Source: a virus
Direction: 5' to 3' (one strand)
Virus record (IMG/VR): IMGVR_UViG_3300017987_000056
Span: 1 to 64,000 of that record
Length of the DNA stretch: 64,000 nucleotides
The translations under genes and the position numbers were made by a program. Each line of letters begins with the position of its first letter. Positions within the stretch are counted from its first letter, which is position 1. Below, in pieces: positions 16,238 through 41,287 of this stretch. A model generated the notes under the pieces. That model was not told where the DNA came from. It worked only from the letters and a program-made list of their open reading frames with translations, and searched no databases.

Positions 16238-17512
16238 ATGAATAATCCGTACAAAAGGATTTCCAAGAAGCGCCGTCCCGTGCCCACCAAGGCAGCTCGG
16301 CGAGGTGAGCCTACCCGGGGTAAGCGTCCCGCTCCCCGACAGGCTCGGAAAGAAGCTCCGAAGGACGAGCGGCGCAGACTCGCTGCACGTCCGAGGAGTC
16401 GGTTCGGATCGAAGAAGGACGAAACCCTGTTCCAGGGCGACGGTACCTTCAACCCGCAGCGTTACGATCATCCGTCGAGCCGCCACGCGACTCGCGGACG
16501 TTCGGATCGCCGCATGTTTGATTCGAGAGGCGAGGTCAACGCCATCGACCGTCGCGACGCGATGACGCAGGTGCATCAGCTCCTGAACGAGACGGTGAAG
16601 CAGAACGCCAACGCGCTCTCCTTCTACCGTCCGGACACGGAGTCGGGCATCTCGAAGGAAGCGCGTCGGGACATCTTGGCGGCGGCTCTCCAGGATCCCT
16701 CGGGTCAGGGCTTCCACATCGTCGGTCAGGAGCTGGCGCTCCCGATCAAGGCGATTCTCGACTACGAAGGCTTCTCCCGGAAGATCTATCGTGTACGCAA
16801 GCTGGCCCAGGCCGAGCTGTTCCGCGTGCCGCTGGATATCCGTTCGGTCGCCTGGGTGGTTGGCCAAGACGGGCAGACCCCCGAGTCGAGGATCAAGACG
16901 AAGTGGGTCACCCCGCCCGAGTGGAAGGTGACGAGCTTCCCGTCCATCGACATCATGGACATCTATCAGATGAACTTCGATGTCTTGGATCGTGCTCAGG
17001 ACACCGCGCGGCAGGAGATCGAGCTTCAGGAGGACAAGGCCGGTATCGCCATCATCGACGAGGCTGCCCAGACCGAGAATACCGTGACCACGTTCGGTTC
17101 TCTTGGCCTGAACGCTTTCGAGGATGTCCGGTATCAGGTCGAGCGCCATCGTCTGATGGTCGAGAACTTCCTGATCTCTCGTGCCGAGCTGTCCGATGTC
17201 GTGAAGACGATGTCGGCTGCGGTGGATCCGGTCACCGAGCGTGAGCTGATCCTGGCCGGTTACATCGGCAATATCTTGAACGCGCAGATCCTCACCGCAG
17301 CCGGTACCGGTGTCGAGGAAGTGATCCCGGCAGGGACCTTCTACGCGACGACCGGAGCCGAATACATGGGCGAGATGGGCGTCAGGATCGAGCTGTTCTC
17401 CGAGCCGTACAACAAGTACGCGCAGCAGGAGACGGTGAAAGGCTGGGCCTTTGTCGAGATGATCGGATTCGTGATCCCGAACGCGCGTGCGTGCGCCAAG
17501 GGCTCGAAGTAG
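16238..17512 (+). CDS. Major capsid protein (HK97 fold)
   Basis: 424 residues; ATG preceded by GGCGGAGG. Residues 1-75 form a very basic Arg/Lys/Pro arm, probably removed by the protease. The rest has the outline of a large-phage major capsid protein: SIDIMDIYQMNFDVLDRAQD, the long helix ARQEIELQEDKAGIAIID, FLISRAELSDVVKTM, EEVIPAGTFYATTGAEYMG and the late strand ETVKGWAFVEMIGFVIPNAR. Codon use is GC-richer than in the flanking genes, as expected for the most highly expressed gene. It is followed by a chain of hairpins (17531-17646), one of which could act as a partial terminator. Confidence 0.85.
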   Translation: MNNPYKRISKKRRPVPTKAARRGEPTRGKRPAPRQARKEAPKDERRRLAARPRSRFGSKKDETLFQGDGTFNPQRYDHPSSRHATRGRSDRRMFDSRGEVNAIDRRDAMTQVHQLLNETVKQNANALSFYRPDTESGISKEARRDILAAALQDPSGQGFHIVGQELALPIKAILDYEGFSRKIYRVRKLAQAELFRVPLDIRSVAWVVGQDGQTPESRIKTKWVTPPEWKVTSFPSIDIMDIYQMNFDVLDRAQDTARQEIELQEDKAGIAIIDEAAQTENTVTTFGSLGLNAFEDVRYQVERHRLMVENFLISRAELSDVVKTMSAAVDPVTERELILAGYIGNILNAQILTAAGTGVEEVIPAGTFYATTGAEYMGEMGVRIELFSEPYNKYAQQETVKGWAFVEMIGFVIPNARACAKGSK

Positions 17513-17530: not shown

Positions 17531-17646
17531 GCGAAGACGGTAACGCCTTCGTATGGGGACGCTGAGCGTCCCCTTCCCTCCGACTCTTTAACCCCGCGTA
17601 GGCGGGAGATTGAGCGAAAGCTCTGATTCCCAACGAGGATAGTTGG
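17531..17646 (+). ncRNA. Five-hairpin structured leader, HEARO/omega-RNA-like in position
   Basis: Five stems follow each other between the capsid stop and the GTG of the RRXRR gene. A: 17531-17552, GCGAAGACG pairing with CGCCTTCGT (one A.C mismatch, one G.T) around a GTAA loop. B: 17555-17573, GGGGACGC/GCGTCCCC, eight perfect pairs, loop TGA. C: 17593-17606, CCCGC/GCGGG. D: 17612-17623, GAGC/GCTC with a GAAA loop. E: 17630-17646, CCAAC/GTTGG with the ribosome binding site GAGGA in its loop. Two loops are GNRA tetraloops. Known: structured HEARO/omega-RNAs lie directly upstream of iscB genes, whose first domain is the one encoded here. Stem B followed by TTCCCTCC could alternatively slow transcription after the capsid gene. 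Homology to omega-RNA is inferred from context only. Confidence 0.45.
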
Positions 17647-17647
17647 T

Positions 17648-18478
17648 GTGTCGACGAATCGTGTTCCAGTCCTTGGACCTGATGGAACCATTTTGTCGGC
17701 CACCCACCCCGCCAGGGCGCGGAAACTGGTGAACCGGGGTAGGGCGCGAGTCGCGGGACGTCGCCCCTACGCCATACAACTGATCGAAAAGCCAAAGGAG
17801 GCTAATATGCCAAGTGCAGCAGGGGCGATCACGAACTTCACTAAGTACTTTAGGGAAGAGCATGATGTGTATGTCCAGAACAAGTCGAATACGCAGGTTT
17901 CCCTGATGTTCGAGATGGGAATGGGTCGAACCGAATCCGTGTTGATTCCACGAAACCCGGATCCAATCAACCTCACCCAGTTGGTGCCTTTCAGCGCGAT
18001 CAAGGATTCTCCCGATTTTCGGAAGATGATCAATCGCCGTCCTCCGGCGTTGATCTTGCTGGAGGAGGAGGAGTATCTCGCTTACTACGAAAAGAAGGCG
18101 AAGAGCCGAGGTACGGATGCGCAAACCGAGATGGATGAGGCGCACCAAGGACAGGCCGCGATCCAGAACAAGCAGGCGTACACCAACAAGGACGCCGGGC
18201 CTCGCAGGACTATCGAGGAACTGACGGAAGAGCAGGCTGCTGCTCCTCAATCGCCGGACGACATTGTCACTGCTCGGGTGATCGGATTGTGCGCGCAAGT
18301 CGGCGACGATGTGGAGAAGGACAAAAGGATGTCCGCCAATCAGATGCTCGATGAGCTTCGGGCGATGGAGCTGACGAGGGCCGATCTTGAGTATCTGATG
18401 GGGAAAGGCTACTGGAAGACGGTCAAGAAGTTCGCGCAGAAAGAGCTGGAGTCAAAAATCGACGGCGCACCCGAGTAA
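17648..18478 (+). CDS. RRXRR (IscB PLMP) domain fused in frame to a phage structural-operon protein
   Basis: 276 residues from GTG 17648, with GAGGA upstream in a hairpin loop. Residues 5-48 read RVPVLGPDGT, THPARARKLVNRGRARV, AGRRPYAIQLIE: a clear RRXRR (PLMP) domain, the RNA-contacting N-terminal domain of IscB nucleases. RuvC and HNH domains are absent; the match stops where RuvC-I would begin. In frame, residue 54 is a second ATG (17807) with its own strong site AAAGGAGG. Residues 54-276 form a separate protein (NFTKYFREEHDVYVQNKSN, INRRPPALILLEEEEYLAYYE, acidic/helical C-terminus MLDELRAMELTRADLEYLMG) of the kind found after capsid genes in large phages. So two products are likely: the 276-residue fusion and a 223-residue form. 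With no nuclease domain, a binding or regulatory role is more likely than cleavage. Confidence 0.75.
   Translation: MSTNRVPVLGPDGTILSATHPARARKLVNRGRARVAGRRPYAIQLIEKPKEANMPSAAGAITNFTKYFREEHDVYVQNKSNTQVSLMFEMGMGRTESVLIPRNPDPINLTQLVPFSAIKDSPDFRKMINRRPPALILLEEEEYLAYYEKKAKSRGTDAQTEMDEAHQGQAAIQNKQAYTNKDAGPRRTIEELTEEQAAAPQSPDDIVTARVIGLCAQVGDDVEKDKRMSANQMLDELRAMELTRADLEYLMGKGYWKTVKKFAQKELESKIDGAPE
17794..17801 (+). promoter_or_regulatory. Internal ribosome binding site for the short form starting at 17807
   Basis: AAAGGAGG ends five bases before the in-frame ATG at 17807. It is much stronger than the site in front of GTG 17648, so the form without the RRXRR domain is probably the major product. Confidence 0.65.
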
Positions 18479-18560: not shown

Positions 18561-19004
18561 ATGGGAGCTTTCCAAGAAACTGTCCGTACCGTAACTCTTG
18601 CAGCAGGTGCTGCTACTCGTATCTGGGCAGCTCCTTTGAGTGAGCCTTTTAAAGATATGACTATTTGGCTTCTCAATGGAGGAGTCCCGACTGCTGCGGG
18701 GAACCTCGATTGGGAGGTTTTCTACGGTGGCGGCTGGACCGGGGAGCCTTTCAAATCGGGCTCTACTCACTTGAAGGGCAAATCTCAGGCAAGCGGTGCT
18801 ATCGCAGGCGGTACAGAGCTGTGCGACATGGTTTGGGAAGACGGAACACTTCTTCCTCCGAACCAGAACATACCAGCGGGAAGATCGGTCTCAGACAGTG
18901 CCTTGCAGGGCTTTCCGGTCGTCTTGTACCTGAAGAATAACAAGGCCGTACCGCTGACGTTGAATGCGGTTTTTGTGTGCCGTACCGTGGGCGATCACGT
19001 ATAG
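18561..19004 (+). CDS. Small structural-operon protein, first of a tandem pair
   Basis: 147 residues, beta-rich: MGAFQETVRTVTLAAGAATR, MTIWLLNGG, DWEVFYGGGWTGEPFKSGSTH, ending VFVCRTVGDHV. It is clearly paralogous to the next gene (both start MGAF and end TVGDHV, and share LDWEV-x-YGGGWTGEPFK, GSTH, AGG-x-ELCD, WED-x-TLLP and GRSV-x-DSAL-x-GFP). Neither matches a family I know. Their position just after the capsid region suggests virion decoration or neck components. Preceded by the inverted repeat at 18513. Confidence 0.55.
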   Translation: MGAFQETVRTVTLAAGAATRIWAAPLSEPFKDMTIWLLNGGVPTAAGNLDWEVFYGGGWTGEPFKSGSTHLKGKSQASGAIAGGTELCDMVWEDGTLLPPNQNIPAGRSVSDSALQGFPVVLYLKNNKAVPLTLNAVFVCRTVGDHV

Positions 19005-19013
19005 GAGCGAGGA

Positions 19014-19469
19014 ATGGGAGCTTTCAGGGTAACAGTACGGGAATTCGAGCTGACGGCATCCGGAGGCGCTCAGGATACGATTCGTCTTTGGGACGCCCCG
19101 GTGAGCGAGCCCATTCGCAACATGACGATTTGGGTTTTGAGCGGGGGTTTGGTTACCGCTGCGCTTGATCTCGATTGGGAGGTTTTGTACGGCGGTGGCT
19201 GGACTGGGGAACCTTTCAAGGAAGGTTCTACTCATGTTCGAGGAAAATCTCAAGGAAGCGGCAGCATCGCAGGGGGCGCGGAACTCTGCGATGTGATTTG
19301 GGAAGACGCTACGCTGCTTCCAGGCAACAAGAACATCCCTTTTGGGAGATCGGTTCAGGACAGCGCGCTCAAGGGATTTCCCATTGTAGTGGAGCTGACA
19401 AACCAAAAAGCTTCGCCCGTTTCGGGCAGAGTAGTCTTCGTGTCCCGCACTGTCGGTGATCACGTATAG
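19014..19469 (+). CDS. Small structural-operon protein, second of a tandem pair
   Basis: 151 residues, ten bases after its paralogue, with GGAGCGAGGA as ribosome binding site. The two copies share roughly half of their residues over the full length; divergence is spread evenly, so the duplication is not recent. The conserved core is DLDWEVLYGGGWTGEPFK, CDVIWEDATLLP and FGRSVQDSALKGFPIVVEL. Function unknown; two copies might form hetero-oligomers or serve two sites on the particle. Confidence 0.55.
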   Translation: MGAFRVTVREFELTASGGAQDTIRLWDAPVSEPIRNMTIWVLSGGLVTAALDLDWEVLYGGGWTGEPFKEGSTHVRGKSQGSGSIAGGAELCDVIWEDATLLPGNKNIPFGRSVQDSALKGFPIVVELTNQKASPVSGRVVFVSRTVGDHV

Positions 19470-28971: not shown

Positions 28972-29010
28972 GTTTTACCCCGCATTGCGGGAGAGAGGAG
29001 CGAAAGCCCC
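28972..29010 (+). promoter_or_regulatory. Hairpin pair before the tail chaperone gene, related to stems C and D at 17593
   Basis: In the 45-base gap, CCCGC-ATT-GCGGG (28979-28991) is followed by GGAGC-GAAA-GCCCC (28997-29010, one A.C mismatch), which ends at the base before ATG 29011. The ribosome binding site AGAGGAG lies in the 5' arm of the second stem. The stretch aligns with 17587-17624: the blocks TTT-x-ACCCCGC, GCGGGAGA and GAGCGAAAGC are identical, with short differences between them. A fold that hides the ribosome binding site suggests translational control. Confidence 0.55.
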
Positions 29011-29547
29011 ATGTCTACCGAACAGAAAAACGTAAATCCGAAACAAGTCCTGATGGATCTTGCCAAGGAACTGGACGGCGAGACCATCGAGCACACCTGC
29101 AACGTGAAAGGCTTCGAGTTCAAGATGCGGCTGCTCAACGAAGAGGAGTCGAACTGGAGAAACGGCTACATCAATCTCGGCTCGAAGCTGAGCGCCGTTA
29201 GCTCGTGGCGGCTCCCTACGTTGGCAATCGGAATTCGACAGATCAACGGCACTCCCGTTTTCGAATTCTTTCGAGAGGAATGGGACGCAACCGAGGAGAG
29301 CCGGAGGGCGCTTGAGATCGTGGAGGGAAAGGGGCCGTACTCTGCGAAGTACTTCACGGCGGAACACCTGATGAAGTTCCTCGCGGACCGTTTTCCAGAA
29401 GTCATTTCGGACTTGTGGGATGAGTGGCAGAGGATGGAGGACCGCAGGTCGAACGCTCAGGATGCGTTAAAAAAATCCTCCGGGGAGAGTTCGGACGAGG
29501 GTATCGACCCCTCTGGGACCGAACTTTCCCCTTCTGGAGAAAAATAG
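29011..29547 (+). CDS. Tail assembly chaperone, short product
   Basis: 178 residues. It lies between the tail tube and the tape measure genes, where tailed phages keep the chaperone pair, and overlaps the following frame by 72 bases without an independent start there. The sequence is globular (EHTCNVKGFEFKMRLLNEEE, FTAEHLMKFLADRFPEVISD) with a hydrophilic tail. The run of seven A at 29469-29475 allows a -1 slip that makes the long product. Known: the short and long chaperones coat the tape measure during tail assembly and are not in the finished virion. Confidence 0.7.
   Translation: MSTEQKNVNPKQVLMDLAKELDGETIEHTCNVKGFEFKMRLLNEEESNWRNGYINLGSKLSAVSSWRLPTLAIGIRQINGTPVFEFFREEWDATEESRRALEIVEGKGPYSAKYFTAEHLMKFLADRFPEVISDLWDEWQRMEDRRSNAQDALKKSSGESSDEGIDPSGTELSPSGEK
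29469..29475 (+). promoter_or_regulatory. -1 ribosomal slip site A AAA AAA
   Basis: In the chaperone frame the codons are GCG TTA AAA AAA TCC, giving the perfect slippery heptamer A-AAA-AAA. A slip of -1 here enters the open downstream frame at ILRGEFGRGYRPLW and continues to 30299. Programmed -1 shifting in the chaperone pair is conserved in many tailed phages. Confidence 0.75.
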
Positions 29548-30300: not shown

Positions 30301-32619
30301 ATGGCGGTTGCCAAAGACTATCTGCTTTCGTTTGATTTTTCTGAGTTCGATAATCAGATCAACGAGCTGACGCGGGACTATACCGATTTCGGCATGGCAG
30401 TGCGTGAGGTAGTGAACGCTGCGACCACCGATACGCAAGCTCTCAGACAATCCACAGAAGGAGTTTCAGCCTCTCTGCAAACCATGATTCCGCAACTGGA
30501 TCAATCGGCTCAATCGATTCAGCGAGGCATGGGCTCCACGGTCCGAAATCTTGAAAATCTTTCTAGGCAGAGCGAAACCGTAGCCGCCAACATGAGTCGC
30601 TTGTCTGGGATCCAGGTTGGCGGCGAAGCAGGCGTCGGGACTCCTCCGGAGCTTCAGCGCGTCTCGAAAGAAATCAAGGCAGTCCTGGAGATGGCGGATG
30701 TGGCGCGTGCCACGATGTCCGAAGTCGAGCAGCAGCACAAAGAGATGAAGCGCACGTTGAAAGACGAGCTGGAAGTGTTCAAAAAAGGTGTTGCGCAACT
30801 CTTACAGTACGCGGAAAGTGAATTGAAGGGGCTGAAACAGTCTCTTGGAAGTCTCTTGAGTAACATTCCAGGGGTCGGTGGGGGAGTCATCGGCACGCTC
30901 ATCAACTGGATGATTTTGGGTAGGAAAGAGGACGCGCGCCTCACCGCGCAACGCGGGGAAATGGCCAACGTACTGGAAGCTACCGGTGAGCGACTTTCAG
31001 GCCCGGGGTCTCTCGAAAAAACCATTGGATGGTTCAGTGCTTTTCAAGAACACGCTCAGTGGTTTTACGGGATCAGCAAGGAAGAAACGCAGGGCGTTGT
31101 CAGTCAGATGGCGCAAGCTGGATATCGACGCGAGGATTTCGAAAAAAGAATTAGCGAAGACTTGGGGTACGTTGGTCAGAATGCCGTAGTTGCCACAATG
31201 GCGCTGGATGCCCATCTCCACAGGGCTCAGGGTACTGCGATGTCAAACGTGATTACCTTGGTTTCTGACTACGGTGACACGTTGGAGAAGGCGACTAAGG
31301 ATTACATCGGTTTCGGGATGGCTGCGCAGCGCAGCGGGGCCGGAATCGACAAGTTCATCAACGCGGTGATGTCCGGTGCTTCGGCGATGCAGCAATACGG
31401 TATCGACGTTCGTGATGTTGCGAACATTATGGTGAATATCGAGCGGCACTATCGCCGAATGGGACTCCATCCGCAGCATGCTGGGGAAATGGCAGCTCGG
31501 TTTGTAGATAACTACACGGGCGCCGTAGCCAACCTTGGCAGTAGTTCCAAGCTTGAGCTAGCGCGTCGGATGTTCCCTGGCATGGAGGCGCATGCAGCAT
31601 TCGTAAAGTACGAGGAGGGGGCTGCCCGAGCTGCTCGCGGTGAGGACGAAGGTTTCCTTGTCGAAGCGACCATGCACCTTACCGCGTGGGCTCTGGAGGG
31701 TCGTGGTCGTTCCGAAGCTATCTTGTTTTTGGAAAACCAAGGCATGCAGACCCAGACAGCAGCTACGTTGCTGGATGCGCGGGAGGAACTCAAGAAGTAC
31801 AACGATTTTCAAAAGCTTGCTCCGGAACAGAAGCGCGCAGTTCAGCAGGCGTTCGAGATCAATAGAAAAGCGGTTTCCACGTTGGAACAGACGGAAAGGA
31901 AGCTTATCAACGCTTTGGCTGGGGTTGGGAACGGTCTTTTGAAGGTTTTGACTTCAATTTTGGCTATCCTGACGGTAGGCATCACTTCGTTGCCTCGTCT
32001 TATCAGCGCTACTTTAAGGGGAGGGGAAGAGGGGAATCGGGAGCTGACGAAGATCGGTGACGAGATGAAAATGCTCGTCGGAACTTTGGGGGAGGGAGTC
32101 GTCCAGGCAATGGAAGGGCTGGAAGAAGTTCCGGGATCAGTCTCAGAGGCTCTAGGCGGTCCGCTGGATATATTGAAACGAGCTGCGAGTGGAAACCTTG
32201 AAGGACCTCGTAGGGAAGATCAGCCGACGACTCCGAGAGTTGTGGGTCGCGGTACGTCCGGAAGCCCAATTGAACTGTTCAAAGGTGCCTGGAGAGCGGC
32301 GAAAGGGCTTGCGACCGGAGCTGCGGGGACCGTAGGTAAACGGATCCCCGAGTCTGCGACCCCGGAACCCCCTGCGGTAGCTCCTCCGGACTCGGCTACG
32401 GAAGAAAGCGAACCGCCTCCGAAGCATCCTGGAATGCCTCGCGGTTCCGAAGTCAAGGCAGTGCGTGACCAAGAGCGGGCCAAGCCAGAACCGTTAGCCA
32501 ACGCCAAAGAGCGCGAAATCATGGCAAACCCTCGGCGTGCCGAAGTGGTCATATCTTCTGAAGCAATCGCCCAGGCGGATATCAAACACAAGGAGCGGAC
32601 ACTTCCACCGTCAGATTAA
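30301..32619 (+). CDS. Tape-measure-like protein 1 of 3
   Basis: 772 residues, mostly helix. Directly after the chaperones, as expected for a tape measure. N-terminal coiled coil to about residue 190; a hydrophobic Gly-rich segment near 185-205 (LLSNIPGVGGGVIGTLINWM); a block from about 219 (EMANVLEATGERL ... FQEHAQWFYGISKEETQG) shared with the next two genes; a membrane-like stretch near 546 (LLKVLTSILAILTVGITSLP); then a Pro/Ala/Glu-rich disordered tail. Known: the tape measure sets tail length and enters the host envelope. That three consecutive genes share this architecture is unusual. Confidence 0.65.
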   Translation: MAVAKDYLLSFDFSEFDNQINELTRDYTDFGMAVREVVNAATTDTQALRQSTEGVSASLQTMIPQLDQSAQSIQRGMGSTVRNLENLSRQSETVAANMSRLSGIQVGGEAGVGTPPELQRVSKEIKAVLEMADVARATMSEVEQQHKEMKRTLKDELEVFKKGVAQLLQYAESELKGLKQSLGSLLSNIPGVGGGVIGTLINWMILGRKEDARLTAQRGEMANVLEATGERLSGPGSLEKTIGWFSAFQEHAQWFYGISKEETQGVVSQMAQAGYRREDFEKRISEDLGYVGQNAVVATMALDAHLHRAQGTAMSNVITLVSDYGDTLEKATKDYIGFGMAAQRSGAGIDKFINAVMSGASAMQQYGIDVRDVANIMVNIERHYRRMGLHPQHAGEMAARFVDNYTGAVANLGSSSKLELARRMFPGMEAHAAFVKYEEGAARAARGEDEGFLVEATMHLTAWALEGRGRSEAILFLENQGMQTQTAATLLDAREELKKYNDFQKLAPEQKRAVQQAFEINRKAVSTLEQTERKLINALAGVGNGLLKVLTSILAILTVGITSLPRLISATLRGGEEGNRELTKIGDEMKMLVGTLGEGVVQAMEGLEEVPGSVSEALGGPLDILKRAASGNLEGPRREDQPTTPRVVGRGTSGSPIELFKGAWRAAKGLATGAAGTVGKRIPESATPEPPAVAPPDSATEESEPPPKHPGMPRGSEVKAVRDQERAKPEPLANAKEREIMANPRRAEVVISSEAIAQADIKHKERTLPPSD

Positions 32620-35162
32620 TGGCTGAGGAAATACCAAAGGTAGAACTTGATCTTACTGGTTTGCAAAGTCAGGTTGCGAATCTTCAACGTTCCTATACCG
32701 AATTTGGAGCGACCGTTCAGGACATCGCGGTCGGCACCGCTCAGGATGTGTCTTCGTTTTACGATTTAACGTTGGGGATGGATTTGCCGATATCATCCGC
32801 TTTGGCAAGTCTCCCGGAGCCCGCCCCACTCGGAGCCGCCGACCAGGGGCGCATCGCTTTTTATCTGGAGGCTCAACAACGGGAGGCGAGGCGGATCGTA
32901 GAAAACCTTGCGACAATGAAAGAGGTGAAGCTCGATAAAGTTTTCAAGAAAAAACCGTCGCCGCAGGATCCGCAACATCAATCGGTAGAGTCTGCGATTG
33001 GCATGGCCGAGCGTGACATGAAGAGCGCAAAAGAAGAGGTCAAAGGGACTTTCAAGGAAACTATGAAAGCTTCCGAAGGTGTGTTTGGCGTTCGAAAGGA
33101 AGCCGCGAAGGAATCTCGGGAAGCCACCAGTAAAATTGAAGCTGCTGTTTTGAAAGCTTACGAAGGAATCGGAGATTTGTTAAAGAAGCTCCCCGATAAA
33201 CTTTCCCGGCTCGGTGGAGGTTTTGTCAGCGGGCTGTTCGGGGCTCTTTCGATTGGATACCGGGAGAAAGATCGTAAGCGCGCTGAGCTAGGGGAGATGG
33301 CGAACGTTTTTCAATCTTCTTTCGATTCTTTGATGAGTGGGAAAACTCAACGAGCGGTTCGTAACCTGAGCAGCTTCGCAGAACACGCTCAGTGGCGGTA
33401 TCGACTCGCGCGGAAAGATGTACAGGCGACTGCTAAGCTGCTCGTCGATGCCGGAGTAGAGGCGGACGATTTTTTGAAGGAATTTGACAAAGGTCTTGGC
33501 GGTGTCGGGGACAACGTAGTGAAAGCTTCCTTGGCGCTCGATAAGCACTTTCACGTCGCGGACGGAACTTCAATGCAGCGTGCCGTGGAGTTTATGCACA
33601 ACTACGCGATGGGCGCTCACGAAGCACTTAAATCCTACATGAAAATCGCAGGGGCCGCGCAACGAAGTAGAATCGGTACTGAAAAATTCATTGGAGCCGT
33701 CTTGGATAGTGAGGATGCGCTTCGAAAGCTCGGCGGCAATGTTGAATTCGTGGCGGTCATGGTTAACCGAATCACCGATCATTACGAGGAGATGGGTCTC
33801 AATCGAAAATTCGCAGGACGACAGGCAGTGGGCGTGGCTGTAAATTTGTTGGAGGCATTTCAAAATATCGGAGATAAATTGAAAATCGAGCTGATGCGCG
33901 ACATTACGGGGGATGAGCAGGCGCGCGGACTCGATCTCGTGCAGCAGTTCAAGGACGGTCTAAGTCGTTTGAAAGAGGGTGGGGGTAGTGACGAGTTTCT
34001 CGAAAAGCTTTTGAAAGCCTTTTCTAACGTGGTGATGCGTCAGTTGGCAGGAAGCCGTGCCCAGAGAATCATGGCGGTCAGCGATATTCTAAGTGTTTCG
34101 GTTGGCGACGCGGCGTTGATTCACGATTTGACGGAGGAACTGGGTGAAGTTGGTAAGTTGGCCGATCTGGATAAAAGCCAGGTTCGGAACCTGAAAGATG
34201 CGTTTGGTCGTGAGCGTGAGGCGGTTTCGACCTTGGATGTTACCCGTCGTGAATTGATCGATATGATTTCTGGTGTTTCGGAGGGTCTTTTTGGGATCCT
34301 TACCAATATTGTTGCTCTTCTCATCGTAGGTGTAAAAACTTTCCCAGCTCTTTACTACGGGTTCAAGTCAGGTGAGGTTGATCTGGTGATGGATCGTCTG
34401 TGGGAAAAGGTTTCTTCTATTTGGCGTGATATGGGGACCAACTGGCAGAAGATTGAGGATTCTTTGTACAATTCGTCCCAGAAACTCTCGGCAATGTTTC
34501 CTGGCACCGTGGGGACTATCTTGAATTTATTTTTTGGTAGGCAAAAGTACTACGAACCTCCGAGACAACAAGATCTGGATAAGTTGGCGTCGATGTCTCC
34601 CGAAGAGTTGCAGCAATCGGAAAGGGCTCAAGAGCTTGCCGAACAATACATGCGAGGTGAAGCCGCTCCTCAACGTGCGCCCGATTGGATGAAAAAGAAA
34701 ACGGAAAGCGGGGATTTGGTTTGGATGAATCAAATTGCCATCGATCCCTACACCGGTCGTCGGTGGAGTCCCGGTGGTCGTGAGCTAGAGCGCATCTCAG
34801 GCACTTACGATCCTACTGCTGCTCAATCGGTAGAGAGCGCGTTGGGTTTTGCGAAGAATATGGGAGAAGTCGTTCCCGGTCTCGAAGTCCTCGCTCCTCC
34901 GATGACACGTTTTGTTTTGAACGAGACCGGCATTCTCAATGTGGAACGAGAAGGACGGACGCACGGGGAAATCATCCGAGACCGGACTCGCGATCATATA
35001 AAGGAGCAAGCGAAGAGAAGAGCAGAGCAGGATACTGAGGGTAAGTTCACTCTGCGCGACTATTCGGATGATACTACGGCGGGTTTGTCCGGAGATGCCG
35101 GGGTGCGTCTTATTCCGGCTTCTTTGGCGGTTTCGGGAAAGAAGGTTTTACCCCCGGGTTAA
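32619..35162 (+). CDS. Tape-measure-like protein 2 of 3
   Basis: 847 residues; start overlaps the previous stop by one base (TAATG). Same plan as its neighbours: helical N-terminus, Gly-rich hydrophobic segment near 197-215 (RLGGGFVSGLFGALSIGY), shared block from about 226 (EMANVFQSSFDSL ... FAEHAQWRYRLARKDVQA), GTSMQRAVEFMHNYA, and a hydrophobic stretch near 556 (LFGILTNIVALLIVGVKTFP). The C-terminal 250 residues differ from both paralogues and contain no recognised enzyme domain. Confidence 0.65.
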   Translation: MAEEIPKVELDLTGLQSQVANLQRSYTEFGATVQDIAVGTAQDVSSFYDLTLGMDLPISSALASLPEPAPLGAADQGRIAFYLEAQQREARRIVENLATMKEVKLDKVFKKKPSPQDPQHQSVESAIGMAERDMKSAKEEVKGTFKETMKASEGVFGVRKEAAKESREATSKIEAAVLKAYEGIGDLLKKLPDKLSRLGGGFVSGLFGALSIGYREKDRKRAELGEMANVFQSSFDSLMSGKTQRAVRNLSSFAEHAQWRYRLARKDVQATAKLLVDAGVEADDFLKEFDKGLGGVGDNVVKASLALDKHFHVADGTSMQRAVEFMHNYAMGAHEALKSYMKIAGAAQRSRIGTEKFIGAVLDSEDALRKLGGNVEFVAVMVNRITDHYEEMGLNRKFAGRQAVGVAVNLLEAFQNIGDKLKIELMRDITGDEQARGLDLVQQFKDGLSRLKEGGGSDEFLEKLLKAFSNVVMRQLAGSRAQRIMAVSDILSVSVGDAALIHDLTEELGEVGKLADLDKSQVRNLKDAFGREREAVSTLDVTRRELIDMISGVSEGLFGILTNIVALLIVGVKTFPALYYGFKSGEVDLVMDRLWEKVSSIWRDMGTNWQKIEDSLYNSSQKLSAMFPGTVGTILNLFFGRQKYYEPPRQQDLDKLASMSPEELQQSERAQELAEQYMRGEAAPQRAPDWMKKKTESGDLVWMNQIAIDPYTGRRWSPGGRELERISGTYDPTAAQSVESALGFAKNMGEVVPGLEVLAPPMTRFVLNETGILNVEREGRTHGEIIRDRTRDHIKEQAKRRAEQDTEGKFTLRDYSDDTTAGLSGDAGVRLIPASLAVSGKKVLPPG

Positions 35163-38831: not shown

Positions 38832-41287
38832 TGGGCGACGGTTTTGAAAATCCATATTCGGGAGTAGATGCCGCTGAAGGCATCTATCGAGCGGCTTTTC
38901 CAGCTTTCCGTGTCTTCATCTACGGAATGGAGGTTTCTGGAGACGTTATTGATGCTCGGGTTAATCAGTCGGGCGGTAGCCAGGATCGCTCTCCGAGCAC
39001 TTGTTCGATCACTTTAGCGAATTACAACGATAAGTATATAGTGAACCACACCGATATGCTGATTCTAGGAACTTCTCGGCAAAATCTCGATAGGAGGTTT
39101 GATGAAAATATTCAAGCGTACCGAGATTGGGTGGAGATGATTACTGAAATTGATCCGGGCGGCAGCGATTTCGATTCTTTCATGTCGAGACTTTCTCAGC
39201 TAGATGCGGAGGGGGCCGGTGCGTTTCAGGATCTTGGAGACCTTATCTCTGTGTATTCAAACTTGAAGAGTTCAGGTGGTTTTTTCGAAGGTTACTATAA
39301 CGGAGATCTTCAAGTTCCTGACGGCATAAAATACACCGTCCTACAGAACAAAGCCCCTCAAGTTTTGTATGATAGCGAAGGGGCGATTAACGACCTGATG
39401 AAGGATGAGATTCTCTGGCCATACATAAAGTCCAAGCAGATTTATCTTTACCCATTTCAAGAGGGTGACTGCATTTTCCATCCGAACGATCCTATTCGCA
39501 TTGTCTTTCGGGATCCGTTCAGTCCGAACGTCTGGTATTGGATGTTCACTGGTTTTGTGGATTCCTTTACTGAAAATCGAGGCGTGAACCGGGAGTCTAC
39601 CGTCACAATTACCGGAACGGATGTCACCAAATCCGTTCGATACGCTTTTTTGCAGACTAATACGGATCAACTCGATCCTGCGATTCGAAAAATCTTCCGA
39701 AACAACCCGGCTTTCCAGGGTCCGTTCGGAGACAGTCCCGTGGGGGAGTTGAAGGCGAATTTTTACAATGAGATTTTTTCTGGATTCAGTCCTTATGAAA
39801 TTTTAGAAATCCTGTTTTTCGGTTTGGACGATTTTCGTCCTATCCTTGACGACACCGTGATGGCGACCATTCGCGCAATGGACGATTCGGAGATCAATAC
39901 CTATCTTTTAAATACTCTTGGTCGGTCTAAAGAAGAAGTTGCCTCGATGCAGCCTGCGGAACGCCGTAAGCAGCTTCAAAAAAGGCTCGTGGATGAAAAA
40001 CAGGATCGTTTTCCAGGTTCTTCGATTCCGTTGATCACAACTCCTCGTGGGATTCCGTTCAAAAGGAAGACCGTTGAGCAAGGCGTTCGCGCGCTCTTCA
40101 TCGGTGACGAGCTGAATCCTGTTGACGAGGCTCTCGGGGAGAAGATACCCATAGCGAATATTAGGGAACTGAACGATCTCTTGCATCATCGTGTTCGGGT
40201 TGAGGATTTGGACACGATGCTGAAATACGACGCGATCCCTTCTTTGGAGAAGGGCTGGACTCTGGAGGATGTCATTACGCAGATTGGTACTGACATCGAA
40301 CGTTATCCCGTGGGTCACGGAAATGTCTACTACGTAGCCCCTGCCAATTTGGGGCCGAAGGTATCCAGGGGTATCCTGGATCAGTCTACGGCGGGGACTG
40401 CCCTTCAGCATTCCGAGTTCAAGGACAGGTTGTCGTTCATTTACGATCTTGCAGACGCCATCGACTTTAGGTTCTACGCCACTCCGAGAGGCGATGTAGT
40501 ATTTGAGATGCCTTTCTACGACTTCAGCGTCGACATTATGGATTCTAAGGACCCCAGTGTTTACAATGACCGCATTCGAAAAGAGCTTGAGGATCTTACT
40601 ACGAAGTATTTCGATTTCTGGGTGTCTGATTCCGATAAATACACGGAAGGTGATTTCAGGGAAATGATGGATCTTCCGACGAAACTTGAGGTTGCTCAGC
40701 AAGGCTTTGATGTTTTCTATCAGGACCTTTTGGATGAGTACAGCTACACTCGCGCCTTTACCATTGAGCATCACGAGACAACTGGGTATAGCAATTCATT
40801 GAACGATTCGGGATTGAAAACCGTAGGTCGCGCGATGCCTAATTTATTGATAAATTTTGCAAAAATCAACGACGAAGGGCTTCGAAGGAATGTGTACGTG
40901 ACTGTTCCGGAGTTGGCTCAACTCTTGGGTTTCCGAATCGCTTCCTACCAGCCTTGGTGTCCTGTGGCCACCAAGGAGGGCGCTCAAGTATTCGCCTCCT
41001 TGATGTTGAGGAAATCAAATGCGGAAGCGAGAAATCTAGGAATAGGAACGGTTCCGATGTTCGGATTGATGGTGAACCGCCCTATTTATTGGCGCGAGAG
41101 AAACTACATGGCGAATCTCGTGAGTGCGCAGCATTCGATTGTGTGGAACAGCTCGTGCGACACTACAGTCAACCTGAACAATGTGCGTGGGTGGACGGGA
41201 AGCACTATTCAGGAGCACGAGATTTACGAATTTTTCGGAGGTAAGTATCCGTTTGACTATAACGATGTGTTGAGGAACCGGAGGTAG
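38831..41287 (+). CDS. Baseplate hub protein (gp27/gpD-like)
   Basis: 818 residues. Early strands FRVFIYGMEVSGDVIDARVN and STCSITLANYNDKYIV, DPIRIVFRDPF and WMFTGFVDSFTENRGVNRES followed by TVTITGTDVTK are typical of phage hub proteins of the gpD/gp27 type, which carry the central spike. A helical insert at about 90-180 and another at about 330-430 enlarge it. Position between the adaptor and the spike gene supports the call. Confidence 0.65.
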   Translation: MGDGFENPYSGVDAAEGIYRAAFPAFRVFIYGMEVSGDVIDARVNQSGGSQDRSPSTCSITLANYNDKYIVNHTDMLILGTSRQNLDRRFDENIQAYRDWVEMITEIDPGGSDFDSFMSRLSQLDAEGAGAFQDLGDLISVYSNLKSSGGFFEGYYNGDLQVPDGIKYTVLQNKAPQVLYDSEGAINDLMKDEILWPYIKSKQIYLYPFQEGDCIFHPNDPIRIVFRDPFSPNVWYWMFTGFVDSFTENRGVNRESTVTITGTDVTKSVRYAFLQTNTDQLDPAIRKIFRNNPAFQGPFGDSPVGELKANFYNEIFSGFSPYEILEILFFGLDDFRPILDDTVMATIRAMDDSEINTYLLNTLGRSKEEVASMQPAERRKQLQKRLVDEKQDRFPGSSIPLITTPRGIPFKRKTVEQGVRALFIGDELNPVDEALGEKIPIANIRELNDLLHHRVRVEDLDTMLKYDAIPSLEKGWTLEDVITQIGTDIERYPVGHGNVYYVAPANLGPKVSRGILDQSTAGTALQHSEFKDRLSFIYDLADAIDFRFYATPRGDVVFEMPFYDFSVDIMDSKDPSVYNDRIRKELEDLTTKYFDFWVSDSDKYTEGDFREMMDLPTKLEVAQQGFDVFYQDLLDEYSYTRAFTIEHHETTGYSNSLNDSGLKTVGRAMPNLLINFAKINDEGLRRNVYVTVPELAQLLGFRIASYQPWCPVATKEGAQVFASLMLRKSNAEARNLGIGTVPMFGLMVNRPIYWRERNYMANLVSAQHSIVWNSSCDTTVNLNNVRGWTGSTIQEHEIYEFFGGKYPFDYNDVLRNRR

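Follow-up and report, generated by a model that had tools for sequence, protein, structure and literature searches.

A PLMP-head protein fusion with omega-RNA-like terminal hairpins as a probable guide-free translational regulon of head and tail genes in a large phage lineage

OMEGA systems are the ancestors of Cas9. Autogenous translational repression is known from ribosomal-protein leaders, from RegA and gp32 of phage T4 and from the MS2 coat protein. In IscB, the terminal hairpins 1 and 2 (TH1 and TH2) are recognised by the PLMP domain (PMC9640706), and in IsrB the PLMP domain contacts the tandem hairpins SL7/SL8 (PMC9581776). The Shine-Dalgarno sequence of isrB is contained in the terminal tandem hairpin, for which the authors suggested a role in isrB expression, and the PLMP fold resembles the N-terminal domain of translation initiation factor IF3 (PMC9581776). 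It has also been shown that an OMEGA protein was co-opted by phages for gene regulation, namely in the TnpB-like nuclease-dead repressors TldR (PMC13418256).

The DNA studied here, a window of 64,000 nucleotides, is part of a virus record of 127,888 bases. An array of hairpins lies between the stop codon of the capsid gene (17510-17512) and the GTG at 17648, at which a fusion ORF opens. The locus shares with the IscB/IsrB OMEGA loci (HEARO, RF02033) the PLMP domain, tandem TH1/TH2-like hairpins directly before the ORF and a Shine-Dalgarno sequence inside or next to these hairpins. It differs in being without RuvC, HNH, TI, bridge helix, guide and HEARO scaffold, in the fusion of PLMP to a virion protein and in a second copy of the hairpins at another gene. 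The features of the first site are:

16238-17512, plus strand: major capsid protein gene (phrog_2522; phrogs, 194 bits), directly 5' of the array
17531-17573, plus strand: hairpins 1 and 2, post-capsid hairpin region outside the omega-RNA-like element
17531-17552, plus strand: hairpin 1, GUAA loop
17555-17573, plus strand: hairpin 2, from the window fold
17591-17610, plus strand: hairpin 3, putative TH1, ACC-CCGC-GUAG-GCGG-GA-GAU (stem 17594-17605, GUAG loop)
17612-17628, plus strand: hairpin 4, putative TH2, GAGC-GAAA-GCUC, then UGAUU (stem 17612-17623, GAAA loop)
17630-17646, plus strand: hairpin 5, with the Shine-Dalgarno sequence GAGGA (17635-17639) in its loop, before GTG 17648
17648-18478, plus strand: fusion ORF, PLMP in frame with a head-module protein (phrog_17686)
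17648-17806, plus strand: PLMP (RRXRR N-terminal) domain, 53 codons
17794-17809, plus strand: internal Shine-Dalgarno sequence AAAGGAGG and ATG (17807), predicted start of a PLMP-less form

The original prediction of five stems with two GNRA loops between the capsid stop and the GTG was borne out by the window fold, whose minimum free energy over 17531-17646 is -48.2 kcal/mol, against -35.8 +/- 3.4 in dinucleotide shuffles (z -3.6, 0/200). The array consists of separate elements, hairpins 1-2 and hairpins 3-4, and is not a single structure. A strong hairpin between the capsid stop and hairpin 3 was found in 15/15 loci (z -2.4 to -8.2), and these post-capsid hairpins have no sequence similarity to each other. 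Hairpins 1-2 do not belong to an omega-RNA and are consistent with a region that follows the capsid gene. Hairpin 5 is based on the single-sequence fold of the window and on loose parallels in three relatives (L002, L003 and L022).

The N-terminal domain of the fusion is homologous to the PLMP domain of IscB. Pfam PF14239 matches the PLMP codons with 33.6 bits (profile positions 1-48 of 174), and a profile of the phage domain finds TbaIscB (1.1e-11) and OgeuIscB (8e-6) in the PDB. Residues 4-51 of the AlphaFold model superimpose on TbaIscB at 1.6 A and on OgeuIscB at 1.4 A (47-48 residues), and on DtIsrB at 2.1 A, with Z scores of 7 to 8 for these three. The fold reaches Z scores of 6 to 8 with the PLMP of IscB/IsrB, while its resemblance to the IF3 N-terminal domain is weak (Z about 3.3). 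The guided_IscB profile NF040563 matches at positions 3-47 of 314 only, with no further match in the record of 127,888 bases; since the only guided-IscB match of the record is the PLMP stretch, the nuclease part is absent. RuvC, HNH and a guide scaffold were looked for and not found.

Related loci were collected through the capsid protein, the fusion protein and alignments; the capsid protein search gave 23 related viral loci, and P0001 alone as the query gave none. No stop codon interrupts the fusion frame in the window or in the 21 relatives that were examined first, the fusion is common to about 30 relatives, and RRXRR is matched by 15/15 aligned members. PLMP evolves under purifying selection, with a pN/pS ratio of 0.39, against 0.46 in the rest of the gene. 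In the PLMP tree, 26 of 27 phage PLMPs fall into one clade (support 97/96). The head protein partner keeps its own ribosome site and ATG within the fusion, and because this junction ATG has a Shine-Dalgarno sequence in 29/30 members (against 23/158 other in-frame ATGs), a PLMP-less product is very probably also made. A viral fold search lists a PaBG protein for the fusion partner, and an HMM search of the stretch beside the PaBG capsid gene found no homologue of it there.

When named phages and plasmids were searched by tblastn with P0001 or the PLMP consensus, the only hit was Virus Rctr197k (L101, KX853510.1, 3589-4758), through the C-terminal part; it carries a divergent PLMP fusion and a TH1-like hairpin, deposited as misc_feature only. 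In L018 (4264-5939), a TH1-like hairpin behind the capsid gene is followed by about 1.6 kb of inserted small ORFs, some of which occur in related copies, and then by the PLMP fusion. L048, a contig of 17,766 bases from an Archaeoglobales MAG, agrees with the IMG/VR contig of L012 in length, leader and PLMP and is a phage contig binned with an archaeon. Behind the fusion gene of the window lie two tandem paralogous genes (18561-19004 and 19014-19469; 147 and 151 aa), both starting with MGAF.

In motif and place, hairpins 3-4 match the 3'-terminal hairpins of the omega-RNA of IscB. The order in relatives is capsid stop, strong hairpin, TTTAACCCCGC-loop-GCGGGAGGT-hairpin-TGGCA and PLMP ORF, with UGGCA 3' of TH2 where the window has UGAUU. 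The shared motif, ACC-stem-loop-stem-GAG, was found in 15/15 phage loci (0.64 expected) and ahead of the ORF in 27/47 iscB loci (2.0 expected); its strict form is present in 13/15 phage loci (0.02 expected) and 20/47 iscB loci (0.14 expected). In 12 iscB loci the Rfam HEARO model ends exactly two bases into the ACC of the motif. The one-to-one correspondence of the two phage hairpins to TH1 and TH2 is suggested by position and motif.

The original prediction had proposed an omega-RNA relative kept without a nuclease. This now applies to hairpins 3-4, for which the motif, the abutting HEARO model, the model matches given below and the PLMP domain speak, and no longer to hairpins 1-2. The HEARO search of the array that it had named gave no match: Rfam at gathering and at permissive thresholds showed nothing relevant at the array, and RF02033 was absent at E up to 10 in the record itself and at gathering score in 14 relatives, with positive controls at 94-155 bits. 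This negative result is uninformative, since even at genuine iscB loci the model stops two bases into TH1, and Rfam finds nothing in the phages because they kept the part of the omega-RNA that lies beyond the HEARO model. A separate viral contig, L045 (1722-3978), carries HEARO, an IscB ORF and a TnpB-like ORF directly overlapping the IscB ORF.

Covariation in related phages, also raised by the original prediction, was found for hairpins 3 and 4: 0.307 against 0.171 +/- 0.024 in shuffles (0/500; 15 related sequences), with slid controls at most 0.161. Double changes occur at 8/11 pairs, including every pair of the hairpin 4 stem. The relatedness of the sequences inflates such shuffle-based covariation, and matches of models across sites and families are the stronger evidence. 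A covariance model trained on five site-2 phage sequences only (R3; site 2 is described below) gave 28 matches when 210 kb of iscB loci were searched with an E cutoff of 10. Nine of the 28 lie at the terminal-hairpin position on the right strand, against about 0.4 by chance (binomial about 1e-10; about 5e-8 with sister loci merged). Among the iscB loci, the best R3 match (L099, minus strand) lies away from this position, and the model of site 1 (R1) had no significant match in the iscB loci.

The second TH1-TH2 element, the internal start at 17807 and the fusion as the partner protein go beyond the original prediction. The features of the second site are:

28977-29010, plus strand: second putative TH1-TH2 element, ACC-CCGC-AUU-GCGG-GAG then GGAGC-GAAA-GCCCC, ending at the ATG
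29011-29547, plus strand: gene behind site 2, predicted tail assembly chaperone by position and frameshift signature

R1 gave a weak match at 28975 of the window (E 0.19/0.10), which turned out to be site 2. R3 recovers site 1 of the window (17589-17628) with E 4.6e-11, other site 1s with 1e-5 to 1e-11 and untrained site-2 copies with values down to 3.5e-20. No third site of like score was found in any genome with R3. An R1 match at 41090 in the L015 genome lies within a coding region and was rejected as chance; the true site there is 46238. In 12 distinct phages a homologous gene is preceded by site 2. The two sites are 11-14 kb apart (about 10 kb for L043; the spacing in L016 presumes a circular record). 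The 12 are the window and the phages of L002, L003, L008, L012, L015, L016, L020, L022, L023, L024 and L043, that is, all distinct main-group phages whose contig reaches site 2. Site 2 of L020, L023 and L043 keeps TH1, shows no evident TH2 and lies 45-82 nt from the start codon.

ORF 29011-29547 has no family match. In 12/12 phages the homologous gene contains a heptamer in frame, A_AAA_AAA or A_AAA_AAC, and in 10/12 it has a long -1 frame; in the window the heptamer is A_AAA_AAA (29469-29475) and the -1 frame is open for about 270 codons. Because of the slippery heptamer, the long -1 frame and the neighbouring tape measure gene on the 3' side (phrog_167), we assign it as a tail assembly chaperone with a predicted frameshift. 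Two large consecutive ORFs (30301-32619, tape-measure-like by phrog_167, and 32619-35162) have similar passages and are possibly a duplicated or split tape measure.

At both sites the elements lie over ribosome sites. In L020 and L043, the only plausible Shine-Dalgarno sequence of site 1 is inside TH1/TH2, and at site 2 of the window the GAGGAG ahead of the ATG at 29011 falls at the TH2 5' arm. The simplest account would be that site 1 is repressed autogenously and site 2 in trans. In a single capture, the phage lineage would have acquired the 5' end of an OMEGA locus of the IscB type, with the PLMP domain and both 3'-terminal hairpins of the omega-RNA. The long product, PLMP with the head protein, would bind TH1/TH2 in its own mRNA leader and lower its own translation, while the internal start at 17807 would allow the PLMP-less virion protein still to be made. 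The same product would bind the second TH1/TH2 copy at the start codon of the tail assembly chaperone in trans, and the supply of head protein would thus be tied to tail assembly through the common long product. We infer the binding, the direction of repression and the action of the long product in trans. Taken as a whole, it is probable that an OMEGA-derived 5' end was captured once and became a translational regulator of head and tail genes. Counting against it, R1 misses the iscB hairpins, the best R3 match among the iscB loci is out of place, a second phage group has one element per genome, the TH1-like hairpin of L018 is about 1.6 kb away from the PLMP ORF, and site 2 of L020, L023 and L043 has TH1 without an evident TH2.

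This second group (L116, L118, L119, L121-L123, L125 and L126) has PLMP with a different leader of three hairpins (AAGGUGGGUGAAAGACCC...) 5' of the PLMP ORF. This leader, which is joined by a hairpin around the start codon, covaries strongly (0.508 against 0.310), which counts in favour of the main reading, and is possibly another PLMP ligand. A search with its own model found no second site.

Compared with autogenous repressors, the main-group phages have a structured, conserved element that covers the ribosome site of the gene itself, and an RNA-binding protein, whose binding to this element we propose here; like the MS2 coat protein, the presumed repressor is a virion protein. The difference is that RNA-binding domain and RNA site come jointly from an RNA-guided nuclease system. 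TldR is a regulator of transcription that still binds DNA and retains its guide RNA, whereas the phage locus is without guide and nuclease fold, and its target is most likely mRNA.

Instead of a protein, the RNA may itself act as a switch in cis, with TH2 at times closed in its own stem and at times paired with codons A22-R23 (and a second Shine-Dalgarno sequence). The partner proposed for this is:

17711-17718, plus strand: GCCAGGGC (codons A22-R23), with which the TH2 3' arm may pair at long range

Such a switch would couple translation of the leader domain to the internal start. Among 123 codon columns, synonymous constraint is strongest at A22, R23, P49 and R50 (A22 and R23 rank second and third), and GCCAGGGC at A22-R23 as well as CCCAGGGAGG at P49-R50 complement the TH2 arm CCCUGGC. 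In folds that take in coding sequence to codon 30, the TH2 3' arm of most members is predicted to exchange its stem for codons 22-23; the pairing with A22-R23 holds for 89.6% of cells, against no more than 50% in slid controls, and L016 has a matching change on both sides. This is, however, the single double change, and 94/500 shuffles reach the score. For P49-R50, the internal Shine-Dalgarno sequence is a sufficient alternative reason for the constraint, and the window itself has lost CCAGGG there. Moreover, a switch in cis leaves unexplained the conservation of PLMP and the second copy 11 kb away. The long-range pairing is suggestive, and a protein-free switch as the whole account is unlikely; it may be layered on top of regulation by the protein.

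It is also quite improbable that regulation is beside the point and that the PLMP of the long form holds TH1/TH2 RNA as a ribonucleoprotein factor for head or tail assembly or packaging. The partner domain and the second target, both virion-assembly genes, would fit such a role, yet each element is placed at a start codon and over a Shine-Dalgarno sequence, an arrangement that assembly does not need. Finally, that the hairpins are a terminator, processing or stability region of the capsid mRNA, as the original prediction had offered alternatively, and the PLMP codons a decaying iscB remnant is very improbable and for hairpins 3-4 already disfavoured, given the purifying selection on PLMP, the covariation and the second copy elsewhere; hairpins 1-2 do stand behind the capsid gene in all relatives, although neither an intrinsic terminator pattern nor a sigma-70 promoter was found near the array.

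Overall, our data rather favour the regulator in trans: a large phage lineage would link the morphogenesis of head and tail through a translational regulon with two sites, formed by a guide-free and nuclease-free descendant of an RNA-guided nuclease system. In the literature searched (open-licence papers), no prior description of such a system was found. The known re-uses of OMEGA proteins compared here keep the guide; if our reading is true, the opposite part, PLMP and the terminal hairpins, was re-used in these phages. The phage copies would then be a minimal natural system for the control of isrB expression by PLMP and hairpins that has been suggested (PMC9581776), and a clean case in which the leader of a nuclease was turned into a regulon.
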